DNA of 32,609 nt from Lacinutrix sp. (lineage in GTDB: Bacteria > Bacteroidota > Bacteroidia > Flavobacteriales > Flavobacteriaceae): positions 1 through 32,609 of the forward strand of contig NZ_JALZVX010000103.1 in the NCBI RefSeq assembly GCF_023299985.1, in the 5' to 3' direction. Below, piece after piece: positions 28,043-32,299 of this stretch (positions are counted from its first letter, which is position 1; every line of letters begins with the position of its first letter). The notes below the pieces were generated by a model that saw only the letters and a list, made by a program, of their open reading frames with translations, searched no databases and was not told the origin of the DNA. The translations under genes and the position numbers were made by a program.

Positions 28043-28071
28043 TACTGAAGACAAAATATAGTTAAACTCTC

Positions 28072-28092
28072 ATGCTGAGCTTGTCGAAGCAT
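28072..28092 (+). repeat. REP-like palindrome, family A (variant stem)
   Basis: atgctgagcttgtcgaagcat: core CTGAGCTTGTCGAAG with outer pairs ATGCT/AGCAT. Confidence 0.8.
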
Positions 28093-28111
28093 CTCTTTTT
28101 AAAAATAAATA

Positions 28112-28906
28112 ATGAAAGACTTTCAACATAAAAATTATTGGGCACTCATTTTAGGTGGATCAAGCGGATTGGGTTTGGCGACTGCAAAAAAGCTAGCCAA
28201 ACACGGAATGAATATTTGTATTATTCATAGAAATTCTAGAACGCAAGAAGCACAAATTAATTCAGAATTCAACGAAATTAAAGCTGAAGACATTCAGTTT
28301 AAATCTTATAACGTTGATGCCTTTAAAGCTGAAAAACGAGAACAAATTATTTCAGATTTAAAAGAAATATTAGGTGCTGAAGGAAAAATAAGAACATTAG
28401 TTCATAGTGTGGCCAAAGGAAATTTAAAACCTATGTTGGATGACCAAAAACCAACGCTTAAAAATGACGACTTCAATTTAACAATCAACGCCATGGCTAT
28501 TAGTTTGTTTGATTGGACTAAAGCTGTTTTTGAAGCTAAATTATTTGCTTCAGATTCAAGAATAGTCAGTTTTTCAAGTGAAGGAAATACCAAAGCATGG
28601 AAAAATTACGCAGCAGTATCTGCAGCAAAAGTTACTTTAGAAGCCATTACTAGAAACATCGCTTTAGAGTTTGCACCTTTTGGTATTAGAGCCAATTGCA
28701 TTCAAGCAGGAGTTACAGATACAGCGTCTTTACGCATGATTCCTGGTAGTGATAAAATTAAAGAACACAGTTTACTTCGTAATCCATTTAAGCGATTAAC
28801 ACAACCAGAAGATGTAGCAAACGCAGTGTATTTATTATGTAAAGATGAAGCAGCTTGGATTAATGGTTGTGTAATTCCTGTGGATGGAGGAGAACATATT
28901 AGTTAG
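28112..28906 (+). CDS. SDR-family oxidoreductase, enoyl-ACP reductase-like
   Basis: GGSSGLGLATAKKLAKHG; HSVAKG; Y-x6-K (YAAVSAAK) as in FabI/FabL-type reductases; NGCVIPVDGGEH. Confidence 0.85.
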   Translation: MKDFQHKNYWALILGGSSGLGLATAKKLAKHGMNICIIHRNSRTQEAQINSEFNEIKAEDIQFKSYNVDAFKAEKREQIISDLKEILGAEGKIRTLVHSVAKGNLKPMLDDQKPTLKNDDFNLTINAMAISLFDWTKAVFEAKLFASDSRIVSFSSEGNTKAWKNYAAVSAAKVTLEAITRNIALEFAPFGIRANCIQAGVTDTASLRMIPGSDKIKEHSLLRNPFKRLTQPEDVANAVYLLCKDEAAWINGCVIPVDGGEHIS

Positions 28907-28910
28907 TCAA

Positions 28911-28930
28911 ATTCCTGCGCAGGCAGGAAT
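28911..28930. repeat. REP-like palindrome, family B
   Basis: attcctgc-gcag-gcaggaat, 8-bp perfect stem. Confidence 0.8.
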
Positions 28931-28985
28931 CTTATAATAATAACTAGTGTTTATTTTTAAACAATAAAAAATTAGTCGGTTTGTC

Positions 28986-29005
28986 ATTCCTGCGAAGGCA
29001 GGAAT
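28986..29005. repeat. REP-like palindrome, family B
   Basis: attcctgc-gaag-gcaggaat, 8-bp perfect stem. Confidence 0.8.
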
Positions 29006-29025
29006 CCACTTATTTAAAATGAAAT

Positions 29026-29466
29026 ATGAACAGTAAACAAATCATAAACCTTTTACCATACCAACAACCTTTTCTATTCGTTGAAGAACTAACCACGATT
29101 TCAAACGAAGGAATAACAGGAAATTACACCTTCAAAAAAAACGAACATTTCTACAAAGGACATTTCAAAGACAATCCAATTACACCTGGTGTTATTTTAA
29201 CAGAATGCATGGCACAAATAGGCGTAGTCTGTTTAGGTGTTTATATGTTGAAAGACGAAGTTTCCGAAGAAAACAAACCACAAATAGCATTAACATCAAG
29301 TCAAGTAGATTTCTTTTTACCAGTATTTCCTGGAGAAAAAGTAACTGTAGTTTCAGAGAAAGAAGTGTTTAGGTTTAATAAGTTGAAATGTAACGTGAAG
29401 TTATTTAATGAGAAGAATGAACTGGTTTGTAGAGGAAAAATCTCAGGAATGATGAAGATAGTGTAA
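29026..29466 (+). CDS. FabZ-like 3-hydroxyacyl-ACP dehydratase
   Basis: Hotdog motif HFYKGHFKDNPITPGVILTECMAQIG. Confidence 0.88.
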   Translation: MNSKQIINLLPYQQPFLFVEELTTISNEGITGNYTFKKNEHFYKGHFKDNPITPGVILTECMAQIGVVCLGVYMLKDEVSEENKPQIALTSSQVDFFLPVFPGEKVTVVSEKEVFRFNKLKCNVKLFNEKNELVCRGKISGMMKIV

Positions 29467-29485
29467 AGCCAAATATAATTGATAC

Positions 29486-29510
29486 TGTCACACTGAGCTT
29501 GTCGAAGTGT
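29486..29510 (+). repeat. REP-like palindrome, family A
   Basis: tgtcacactgagcttgtcgaagtgt. Confidence 0.8.
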
Positions 29511-29535
29511 TTGTCGTAATTATAAAAATAAAAAA

Positions 29536-30810
29536 TTGAAAAAAAACAGAGTCGTCATAACAGGTTTAGGAGTCGTAGCACCAAATGGTGTTGGTCTCGA
29601 AGCGTTTAGTAAAGCCATAAAAAATGGCGAATCTGGAATTACGTTTCATCAACAATTAGCAGACTTAAATTTTTCGTGCTGTATTGGTGGTATTCCTAAT
29701 ATTTCTGAAGAAAAAAAATTAGAATATTTAACACCTTTACAACTTAGAGGCTTTAATAGTTCTGGTATTTTATATGGTTGTATTGCAGGTAGGGATGCAT
29801 GGAAAGATGCAGGGTTTACAATAGATAAAAACAGCGACTTAGATTTTAATAGCGGAACCGTTTTTGGAACAGGAACTTCTGGAGTCGAAAAATTTAGAGA
29901 AGCTATTTACAAGCTAGATGATAAGCAAGTAAAGCGACTAGGAAGCACAGTTGTAGTACAAACTATGGCTAGCGGAATTAGTGCTTTTTTAGGTGGAATA
30001 CTAGGCTTGGGAAATCAAGTTACAACAAATTCTTCTGCATGCACAACAGGAACCGAAGCTATTTTAATGGGTTACGAGCGCATTAAAAACGGACTAGCAA
30101 AACGTATGCTAGTTGGAAGTTGCAGTGACGATGGACCATATATTTGGGGAGGTTTTGATGCTATGCGTGTGATGACATACAAACATAATGAGACACCAAA
30201 ACAAGGCTCAAGACCAATGTGTGCAACAGCATCTGGATTTGTGCCTGGATCTGGAGCAGGTGCTTTAGTTTTAGAATCGTTAGAAAGCGCATTAGAACGA
30301 AAAGCAACTATTTACGCTGAGGTTTTAGGCGGAAACATTAATTCTGGTGGACAACGAGATGGTGGAACCATGACTGCTCCAAATGCTAAAGCTGTGCAGC
30401 GTTGTATTAAAGATGCCATTAAAAACGCTAATATTTCAGCCGAAGAAATAGATACTATAAATGGACATTTAACAGCAACCTCAAAAGATAGTTTAGAGAT
30501 TGAAAATTGGACAAAAGCATTAAATAGAAAAGGAACAGGTTTTCCGTACATTAATTCTTTAAAGTCTATGGTTGGTCATTGCTTAGCAGCAGCTGGAAGC
30601 ATAGAAAGCGTAGCAACTGTGTTACAATTAAAAGAACAGTTTGTGTTTCCTAATGTTAATTGCGATACTATTCATCCAGAAATTTCAGCATTAATTTCCG
30701 AAGAAAAAATTGTAAAAAAACTTAAAGAAACGAACCTTAATATTGCAGCTAAAGCTAGTTTTGGTTTTGGTGACGTTAATGGTTGTGTTATCTTTAAGAG
30801 ATATAATTAA
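29536..30810 (+). CDS. Beta-ketoacyl-ACP synthase (FabF-like KS)
   Basis: TTG start; NSSACTTGTEAI active-site Cys; INGHLTATSKDS and KSMVGHCLAAAGSIE His motifs. Confidence 0.9.
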   Translation: MKKNRVVITGLGVVAPNGVGLEAFSKAIKNGESGITFHQQLADLNFSCCIGGIPNISEEKKLEYLTPLQLRGFNSSGILYGCIAGRDAWKDAGFTIDKNSDLDFNSGTVFGTGTSGVEKFREAIYKLDDKQVKRLGSTVVVQTMASGISAFLGGILGLGNQVTTNSSACTTGTEAILMGYERIKNGLAKRMLVGSCSDDGPYIWGGFDAMRVMTYKHNETPKQGSRPMCATASGFVPGSGAGALVLESLESALERKATIYAEVLGGNINSGGQRDGGTMTAPNAKAVQRCIKDAIKNANISAEEIDTINGHLTATSKDSLEIENWTKALNRKGTGFPYINSLKSMVGHCLAAAGSIESVATVLQLKEQFVFPNVNCDTIHPEISALISEEKIVKKLKETNLNIAAKASFGFGDVNGCVIFKRYN

Positions 30811-30818
30811 TCAATGGT

Positions 30819-30914
30819 CTTAGACAGGCTCAGACTGACAAATAGTTTCAATTTTGGCTTGACTACTACATTGCCAATTGTAAGTTCTAATGTCACACTG
30901 AGCTTGTCGAAGTG
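30819..30914. repeat. REP-spacer-REP unit (BIME-like), copy 1
   Basis: cttagacaggctcagactgaca + spacer + tgtcacactgagcttgtcgaagtg; 57-bp core (30828-30884) identical to copy 2. Confidence 0.8.
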
Positions 30915-30940
30915 CCAACAATAATTCAAGAAATATAAAA

Positions 30941-31246
30941 ATGAAATTCTACTACGTTTAGATATTATTACGTGCAGACAAAACGTATTACACAGGAATG
31001 ACTAATGATTTAGAAAGGCGAGTATCTCAGCATAAATCTGGGTACAAAAAAGACTCGTATACTGCAACAAGACTACCTGTTAAGTTACCTTGGTATTTAC
31101 AATGTGAAAACCCAAAAGAAGCTATTAAAATTGAAAAACAAATAAAAGGTTGGTCTCAAAGAAAGAAAAGAGCATTAATTAATGAAAACTGGGATGATTT
31201 AGTCGAATTTTCAAAGAATTATAAGGAAAATGATAACCATATATAA
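30941..31246 (+). pseudogene. GIY-YIG nuclease, in-frame TAG at codon 7
   Basis: ATG AAA TTC TAC TAC GTT TAG ATA TTA TTA ... = MKFYYV*ILLRADKTYYTGMTNDLERRVSQHKSG...EAIKIEKQIKGWSQRKKRALINENW. The ORF-track start at 30998 lacks the first half of the GIY-YIG motif. Confidence 0.85.
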
Positions 31247-31259
31247 TTGATGGTGTTGT

Positions 31260-31352
31260 CTTCGACAAGCTCAGACTGACAAATAGTTTCAATTTTGGCT
31301 TGACTACTACATTGCCAATTGTAAGATTTAATGTCACAAAAAGCCTCTCGAA
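31260..31352. repeat. REP-spacer-REP unit (BIME-like), copy 2
   Basis: cttcgacaagctcagactgaca + same 57-bp core (31269-31325) + degenerate tgtcacaaaaagcctctcgaag. Confidence 0.8.
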
Positions 31353-31433
31353 GCTTTAAAAACAGTATAGTTTTCAATTTAACTTTGGTAACTATAGTAT
31401 AGTAAAATGGATATTGACAAATAAGTACAGTAA

Positions 31434-31457
31434 TGTCACACTGAGCTTGTCGAAGTG
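31434..31457 (+). repeat. REP-like palindrome, family A
   Basis: tgtcacactgagcttgtcgaagtg, identical to 30891-30914. Confidence 0.85.
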
Positions 31458-31490
31458 CTAAAAAATTATGATATTTAAAAAAGAAAAAAC

Positions 31491-31745
31491 ATGAATAAAG
31501 AAGAATTAATAACTAAATTAAAAACCATTGTACAACCCTATATCCAAGATGAAGAAGCTTTTGCCAACCTCTCTGAAGAGACCGATTTTATAAACGATTT
31601 AAAAATAAATTCAGCTAATTTAGTAGATGTTATTTTAGATGTTGAAGACGAGTTTGATATCAGGATTGAAAACGACGATATGGAAAAAATGACGTCTGTA
31701 AAAGCAGCAATGGATATTGTAAACGAAAAGTTAGCTGTAAAATGA
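31491..31745 (+). CDS. Acyl carrier protein
   Basis: FINDLKINSANLVDVILDVEDEFDIRIENDDMEKMTSVKAAMDIV. Confidence 0.88.
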   Translation: MNKEELITKLKTIVQPYIQDEEAFANLSEETDFINDLKINSANLVDVILDVEDEFDIRIENDDMEKMTSVKAAMDIVNEKLAVK

Positions 31746-32299
31746 TAGGTAATGATATTGTCGATTTAAAACAAGCAGCTAAAGATAGTAATTGGAAACG
31801 TCCACGTTTTTTAGACAAAGTTTTTACAGTTGAAGAACAACAGTTAATTGCAGATGCTAAAAACCAACACCAAATGGTTTGGTTACTTTGGAGCATGAAA
31901 GAAGCTGCTTATAAAGTAAATGTACAACAGTTTGGGAAGCGGTTTTTTAATCCGAAACGATTAGAGTGTGAGTTTGTTTCTTTAGAAAAAGGACAAGTTG
32001 TTATAGATTTTGAAACCTATTTTACAAGTTCTGAAATTAGTAAGGATTATGTTTATACTGTTGCTGTTTTAAACCCAAAACAAAGCTATAAAAGTGAATG
32101 GTTTAGAGATAAAAAATTAGAGATCAGTAAACAAAGCGATCACCTTCAAAACCGTTTTTTAAAAGCTTTAAATTTAGATTTAACAACCATTATAAAAAAT
32201 AATGTTGGTGTACCTAAATTATATTGTAACACGAAAGTATTAAACACCTCTTTTTCTTTGACGCATCATGGCGCTTTTAGTGGCTATACAATGTTGTGA
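31742..32299 (+). CDS. 4'-phosphopantetheinyl transferase superfamily protein
   Basis: MIGNDIVDL and WLLWSMKEAAYKV motifs; overlaps the ACP gene by 4 bp. Confidence 0.88.
   Translation: MIGNDIVDLKQAAKDSNWKRPRFLDKVFTVEEQQLIADAKNQHQMVWLLWSMKEAAYKVNVQQFGKRFFNPKRLECEFVSLEKGQVVIDFETYFTSSEISKDYVYTVAVLNPKQSYKSEWFRDKKLEISKQSDHLQNRFLKALNLDLTTIIKNNVGVPKLYCNTKVLNTSFSLTHHGAFSGYTML

Follow-up and report, generated by a model that had tools for sequence, protein, structure and literature searches.

Small GIY-YIG nucleases of about 95-110 amino acids and GTC-tagged palindromes probably form a two-part system in which each nuclease lineage has its own cognate REP, judging from the sequence patterns described below. 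Nuclease genes and palindromes are neighbors, nuclease branches carry distinct palindromes, and the two arms of the palindrome covary. Furthermore, REP copy number correlates with the nuclease across genomes, and orthologous sites are found empty, with a solo REP, or occupied by nuclease and REPs. The window, a 32,609-nucleotide stretch of Lacinutrix sp. (NZ_JALZVX010000103.1), holds the following features.

28069-28093, + strand: solo REP of the window type with a degenerate tag (CTCA), before an SDR gene
28911-28931, strand not given: second, partial palindrome of the class E CGTC type
28982-29008, + strand: CGTC-type REP of another class (E), with TGTC tag, stem ATTCCTGC and CCA tail
29486-29509, + strand: solo REP of the window type, located between the FabA-like and FabF-like genes; in congeners it varies or is missing
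30817-30840, - strand: REP at the outer end of the upstream REP-spacer-REP unit, differing from the 15-mer CTGAGCTTGTCGAAG at 2 positions
30817-30912, + strand: REP-spacer-REP unit, copy 1 (96 bp), 91% identical to copy 2
30891-30914, + strand: REP directly upstream of the nuclease gene, tag TGTCA outward
30941-31246, + strand: small GIY-YIG nuclease gene, pseudogene, 101 codons, in-frame TAG at 30959-30961
31258-31281, - strand: REP in inverted orientation, directly downstream of the gene
31258-31353, + strand: REP-spacer-REP unit, copy 2 (96 bp), in direct orientation relative to copy 1
31332-31353, + strand: decayed REP closing the downstream REP-spacer-REP unit
31434-31457, + strand: further solo REP before the acyl carrier protein gene, 94% identical to the first over 34 nt

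The gene at the center of this arrangement had been called a GIY-YIG nuclease in the preliminary description, and its match to the GIY-YIG domain (Pfam PF01541, E 1.3e-13 with the stop read as X) bears this out; we add that it is a pseudogene. Its reading frame is MKFYYV*ILLRADKTYYTGMTND..., in which the invariant GIY tyrosine (Y7 of the alignments) has given way to an in-frame TAG at 30959-30961. The next ATG (30998), if used as a restart, would lose both catalytic tyrosines. Because the stop replaces a catalytic tyrosine and the restart loses both, we read the window copy as dead; being broken, it is therefore unable to act itself. Full-length copies with 82-83% identity to the window gene occupy the same site in two congeners, and intact small nuclease genes are present in many relatives of the window genome. 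In the window, the gene is flanked by those for a FabF-like ketosynthase (29536-30810) and an acyl carrier protein (31491-31745), and five GTCA-tagged palindromes of one family surround it. All coordinates in the preliminary description hold. The inverted pair that it reported consists of TGTCACACTGAGCTTGTCGAAG (30891-30912) upstream of the gene and its partner CTTCGACAAGCTCAGACTGACA (31260-31281), which are 91% complementary over 22 nt; the units that it placed on both sides of the gene in the same direction, and the further REP that it noted at 31434, are likewise present, with the identities listed above.

The 15-mer CTGAGCTTGTCGAAG, with up to 3 mismatches allowed, occurred 6 times in the window compared with 0.34 expected, a count reached in 0 of 100 shuffles. 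The whole window genome had 7 exact copies and none of the reversed control pattern. The window REP pattern was common among 60 relatives and across 301 genomes of the same family, with no copies of the backward pattern. The region 28112-32299 is a cluster of FabA-like, FabF-like, acyl carrier protein and phosphopantetheinyl transferase genes, probably for a pathway of the aryl-polyene or flexirubin type. REPs lie in its gaps in many congeners, and in the window the CGTC-type pair (28911-29008) sits between its SDR and FabA-like genes. An Rfam search found no structured RNA family above the gathering score.

Palindromes were strongly enriched next to GIY-YIG homologues, the first thing that the preliminary description had proposed to check. 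From 60 relatives we took 88 small GIY-YIG genes whose flanks were usable and compared them with 145 intergenic control sites in 20 regions of the same genomes, set at round coordinates chosen by the analyst. Exact 14-mer repeats within 500 bp were present at 68 of the 88 genes and at no more than 6 of the 145 control sites (p 4e-33). Because tandem duplication of the nuclease gene generates direct repeats of this kind, these alone are too weak a signal; separate counts were made of inverted repeats and of motif density. Inverted 14-mer repeats within 500 bp were found at 37 of the 88 genes compared with 4 of the 145 controls (p 2e-14). A second sample comprised the best 80 loci from a scan by protein alignment only, with one genome per species (Bacteroidota, Ignavibacteria, Nitrospinota). 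Among these, an inverted repeat spanned the nuclease gene at 48 of 78 loci, compared with 0 of 73 when flanks 1.2-1.5 kb off were used, and the motif GTCA-N(1-4)-CTGAG or -TCGAG lay within 300 bp of the nuclease at 75 of the 80. Tagged motifs beside the gene in these best 80 loci numbered 1.77 per 250 bp upstream and 1.37 downstream, and dropped to 0-0.09 at 750-1750 bp (upstream, at most about 0.05 past 1 kb). In the same loci, the nearest copy pointed its tag outward on both sides of the gene (57/73 upstream, 44/55 downstream). Directly downstream of one intact nuclease gene (L044; G002 1498430-1499963), 19 REPs of alternating orientation formed a regular tandem array (about 169 bp).

The palindromes have the form of REP elements: they are imperfect palindromes of 20-40 nt, intergenic, present in multiple copies and tagged at one end. 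Their arms covary, since both outer variable pairs were complementary in 196 of 243 distinct copies of GTCA-N1N2-CTGAGC..GTCGAAG-N2'N1', compared with a mean of 34 and a maximum of 53 in 1000 shuffles. Direct reading of several palindrome classes revealed a constant GA opposite GA that breaks the stem between the variable pairs and the loop. Plain duplex palindromes do not show such an interruption, which suggests that the form being read is a folded strand. With standard DNA energies, the CGTC types gave a stable hairpin (z -3.6 to -5.2); the A-type palindrome of the window gave none (z +0.7, -0.7, +0.5). Pairing in the A type is argued for by covariation, of which symmetric binding of duplex DNA could in principle be the cause instead.

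Each branch of the nuclease tree has a distinct palindrome. In tree order, the flanks carried CTGAGC-YTG-TCGAAG, CTGAGCGNAGTCGAAG, TCGAGCGNAGTCGAGA, TTCGAGTG..GTATCGAGAAC, ATTCCTGCGAAGGCAGGAAT, TTGCGAGG..GAAGCAATC and others. On a tree of 138 labelled nuclease genes, where shared ancestry inflates all such counts, the ten palindrome classes required 25 changes (shuffled mean 88, minimum 78), and the nearest nuclease from another genome predicted the class for 115 of the 138 genes, or for 128 compared with about 22 after shuffling once the near-identical classes A and B were merged and neighbors closer than 0.3 ignored. The contrast between paralogues of one genome is independent of ancestry, and single genomes indeed housed paralogues with different palindromes, with four classes in G002 and four in G025. 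Like REP/RAYT pairs, enzyme lineage and palindrome thus co-vary in these GIY-YIG/palindrome pairs. A separate small GIY-YIG branch was found directly next to tRNA genes, where tRNA 3' halves (T arm plus acceptor) are duplicated (L013, L030, L032, L039, L051, L094, L095 and L097), as if tRNA genes instead of REPs were its target.

REP copy number followed the presence of the nuclease, a relation on which the preliminary description had staked its proposal. We counted GTCANNCTGAGCYTGTCGAAG in 301 genomes of the same family and searched them with a profile of the window nuclease branch, tallying the tables by hand; a match at E <= 1e-42 was called strong, the nuclease was called absent when there was no match at 1e-20, and the rest were intermediate. 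REPs were present in 15 of the 17 genomes with a strong match, at a mean of 9.2 copies, compared with 17 of the 183 genomes without a match, at a mean of 0.5 copies (Fisher p 4e-12). Intermediate genomes carried REPs in 38 of 101 cases. The exact pattern was missing from 2 of the 17 strong-match genomes. In the nine genomes that combined a strong match with listed REP places (G000, G036, G074, G115, G205, G245, G266, G292 and G296), REPs lay about 100 bp or closer to the gene. One REP-rich genome that lacked the nuclease (G213) carried a REP pair with 49-bp spacing inside a dispersed, ordinary MITE with long terminal repeats CAATGTCGTTAAGTTAAGC (L233, L234, L236, L237 and L243); REPs can therefore also multiply by riding other elements.

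Comparison of orthologous sites, which had likewise been proposed, revealed all three states. The gap between fabF and the acyl carrier protein gene was empty in one congener (G001), contained a solo REP in three (G006, G010 and G003), and held one or two nuclease genes with many REPs in the window, G004 and G008. Two other gaps of the window gene cluster were also variable among congeners. On AZO_p3 of Azospirillum lipoferum (L248), a nuclease gene with four CGTC REPs separates sufB from sufC in the iron-sulphur assembly operon, and this junction had no insert in four relatives. In Sphingobium, the gap between fnrL and a response regulator gene had no recognisable REP in TYG72 and TYG65, a double-tagged solo palindrome in TYG64 and TYG74, and REP-nuclease-REP as a third state. 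The solo palindrome combines the left arm of one REP with the right half of the other and would be the expected remnant of a deletion between the two ACCCCGGG arms. We saw no clean target-site duplication in the Azospirillum or Sphingobium alignments.

The nuclease is a GIY-YIG superfamily member by its PF01541 match and its conserved Tyr, Tyr, Arg and Glu: Y7, Y17, R27, H31 and E65 are invariant in homologues (22 were compared for the catalytic residues), and Y7 is the residue that the window copy has lost. A predicted model (pLDDT 88.9) matched the UPF0213 proteins 1ZG2 and 1YWL and then Slx1. Small proteins of this UPF0213/COG2827 type (1ZG2, BH0048; 1YWL, EF2693) are the closest sequences and folds of known structure, and their entries state neither a function nor a link to palindromes. 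No NCBIfam family scored above its cut-off. A PADLOC search for defence systems returned no hit. A phage origin was also rejected: the class E nuclease had no match in the phage collection, and the window clade had only 3 relatives on viral contigs.

Palindromes of a second kind extend the association to Proteobacteria. In a tblastn search of plasmids and chromids, a class E nuclease matched 33 records. An inverted repeat surrounded the gene in 13 of the 17 loci read from this set, compared with 0 of 16 at a distance. Here the three loci from Sphingobium are orthologues of one another and are treated as a single case. The tagged hairpins were CGTCATCCTCGGGCTTGACCCGAGGATCCAC at the Shinella and Neorhizobium nucleases, CGTCACCCCGGGCTTGACCCGGGGTCCCG in Sphingobium, and CGTCATTCCCGCGCAGGCGGGAATCTAG in Neisseria, which we take to be the known dRS3 repeat. 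Azospirillum, one of the CGTC species in PMC3733652, had CGTCATCCCCGCGAAGGCGGGGATCCAG. CGTC REPs thus flank a GIY-YIG gene in all five genera, and the layout ranges over alpha-, beta- and gammaproteobacteria. On plasmid p1 of Planktothrix agardhii (L247), a GIY-YIG gene lies between genes for an MmeI-like restriction enzyme and the DISARM protein DrmA.

According to Di Nocera et al. (2013; PMC3733652), REPs split into GTAG and CGTC superfamilies; the latter have a CGTC or TGTC tag, a stem of 8-9 bp starting with AT, a loop of 4-5 nt and a CCA tail, and no dedicated transposase or other enzyme was found for them, a question left open there. Class E palindromes (TGTCATTCCTGCGAAGGCAGGAATCCA), including the one at 28982-29008 in the window, and those of several proteobacterial loci fit this description, which also covers the neisserial dRS3; what differs is that here the repeats flank GIY-YIG genes, whereas that survey came without an enzyme. 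The A-type palindromes around the window gene have a weaker stem and a constant GA/GA mismatch, and we found no description of them in that survey. Because they fall short of CGTC stem strength, we do not file them as CGTC REPs.

How might such a system work? In each lineage the cognate REP combines a GTC(A) tag with an imperfect inverted repeat that comes after it, and an upstream REP and an inverted downstream one usually enclose the gene. The nuclease may recognize its palindrome folded out of single-stranded or cruciform DNA and nick it at or near the unpaired GTC tag. GIY-YIG enzymes hydrolyse DNA and do not join it; the mobility step therefore needs host enzymes, and host replication and repair would copy the free end or join it at another place. 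In this way the system would be actively mobile, spreading solo REPs and REP pairs and, less often, the entire REP-nuclease-REP unit. The window would then hold a dead copy of such a unit between its fabF-like and acyl carrier protein genes. The preliminary description had suggested a REP-associated GIY-YIG system in which the nuclease may mobilise or duplicate the palindromes. The association stands and is wider than proposed, taking in other branches with other palindromes and Proteobacteria; mobilisation or duplication is what we infer. Several points count against the two-part system, namely its need for host enzymes in the mobility step, the lack of a clean target-site duplication, the instability of the A-type hairpin under standard parameters, the 17 of 183 genomes that have REPs and no close nuclease, and the 2 of 17 with the nuclease that lack the exact REP pattern.

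The chief rival, which we consider unlikely, is that REPs spread by other means and serve as the target of a homing-type selfish gene: its nuclease would cut palindromes, and recombination would copy the gene, carried between REP arms, into the cut sites. Homing endonucleases of the GIY-YIG type are well established, the solo-REP and REP-gene-REP states at one orthologous site fit such a cycle, and the Sphingobium solo palindrome would be what remains after collapse of the unit between its arms. However, homing leaves unexplained why REP copy number tracks the nuclease genome-wide and why gene-free REP arrays and pairs expand beside the gene, and most REPs lack the gene altogether. We regard it as quite improbable that the palindromes function as regulatory elements or terminators for a repair nuclease that serves the host, spread as operon signals: they are close to the gene on both sides and could fold in RNA, but most copies lie far from it, the gene is patchy, tandemly duplicated and often decayed, and outward tags on both sides are unexpected for a terminator pair.

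Passive accumulation, in which small nuclease genes and REPs both gather in intergenic gaps that tolerate them and are shared among related species through common descent, would account for their common intergenic location and for REPs inside unrelated MITEs. Against it, repeats occurred at about 4% or fewer of the control intergenic sites in the same genomes, paralogues of one genome have different palindromes, and motif density decays within 500 bp of the gene; we think this reading very improbable. Least credible of all is mobilisation of the REPs by a RAYT (Y1 tyrosine transposase) with the GIY-YIG gene as passenger. RAYTs are the known REP-associated enzymes (PMC2817692, PMC8266576), but no Y1 match lay near any listed REP in the 60 genomes, none at all was found in G004, G014, G017 and G036, which have 6-11 exact REPs each, and palindrome class follows the GIY-YIG tree. 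The absence of Y1_Tnp near REPs largely refutes a RAYT as the mobiliser.

Among known systems, we regard REP/RAYT (TnpA-REP, REPtrons, REPINs) as the closest functional analogy to the proposed GIY-YIG system. Both have short tagged palindromes that occur singly, in pairs and in arrays, with dispersed solo copies, and both have a low-copy gene flanked by palindromes and paired, lineage by lineage, with a cognate palindrome. The enzymes are unrelated, however: a RAYT is an HUH tyrosine transposase and the enzyme here a hydrolytic GIY-YIG nuclease, for which a covalent protein-DNA intermediate is not expected, and the tag is GTC(A) instead of GTAG. We do not assign the system to the REP/RAYT family, since it has neither an HUH transposase nor the GTAG tag. 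GIY-YIG homing endonucleases such as I-BmoI and I-TevI share with the REP-flanked nuclease its catalytic domain and, as proposed here, selfish spread; unlike them, it has no intron and no separate DNA-binding domain, and its gene lies between REPs. Slx1 matches the fold and acts on branched DNA structures, not on sequence, but is eukaryotic, needs Slx4 and has no known association with repeats. We found no prior report of a REP/GIY-YIG pairing in open-access full text, the scope of our search.

REPs are among the most widespread bacterial repeats. An enzyme is known for the GTAG type, and the 2013 survey (PMC3733652) found none for the CGTC type. We currently regard the GIY-YIG family as the best candidate for the enzyme behind the spread of CGTC REPs. 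On balance, we lean toward the broader view that the CGTC (GTC-tagged) REP superfamily, in at least Bacteroidota and Proteobacteria, has its missing dedicated enzymes in the small GIY-YIG nucleases, such that a lone hydrolytic nuclease without transposase or ligase activity would spread folded palindromes and a side branch would have moved to tRNA genes. A nuclease of about 100 residues with cognate palindromes opens the question of the CGTC enzyme to direct in vitro testing, and a function can be offered for a very common gene that is annotated only as 'GIY-YIG nuclease family protein'. If the proposal is true, REP-type mobile DNA would have evolved at least twice, with unrelated enzymes.
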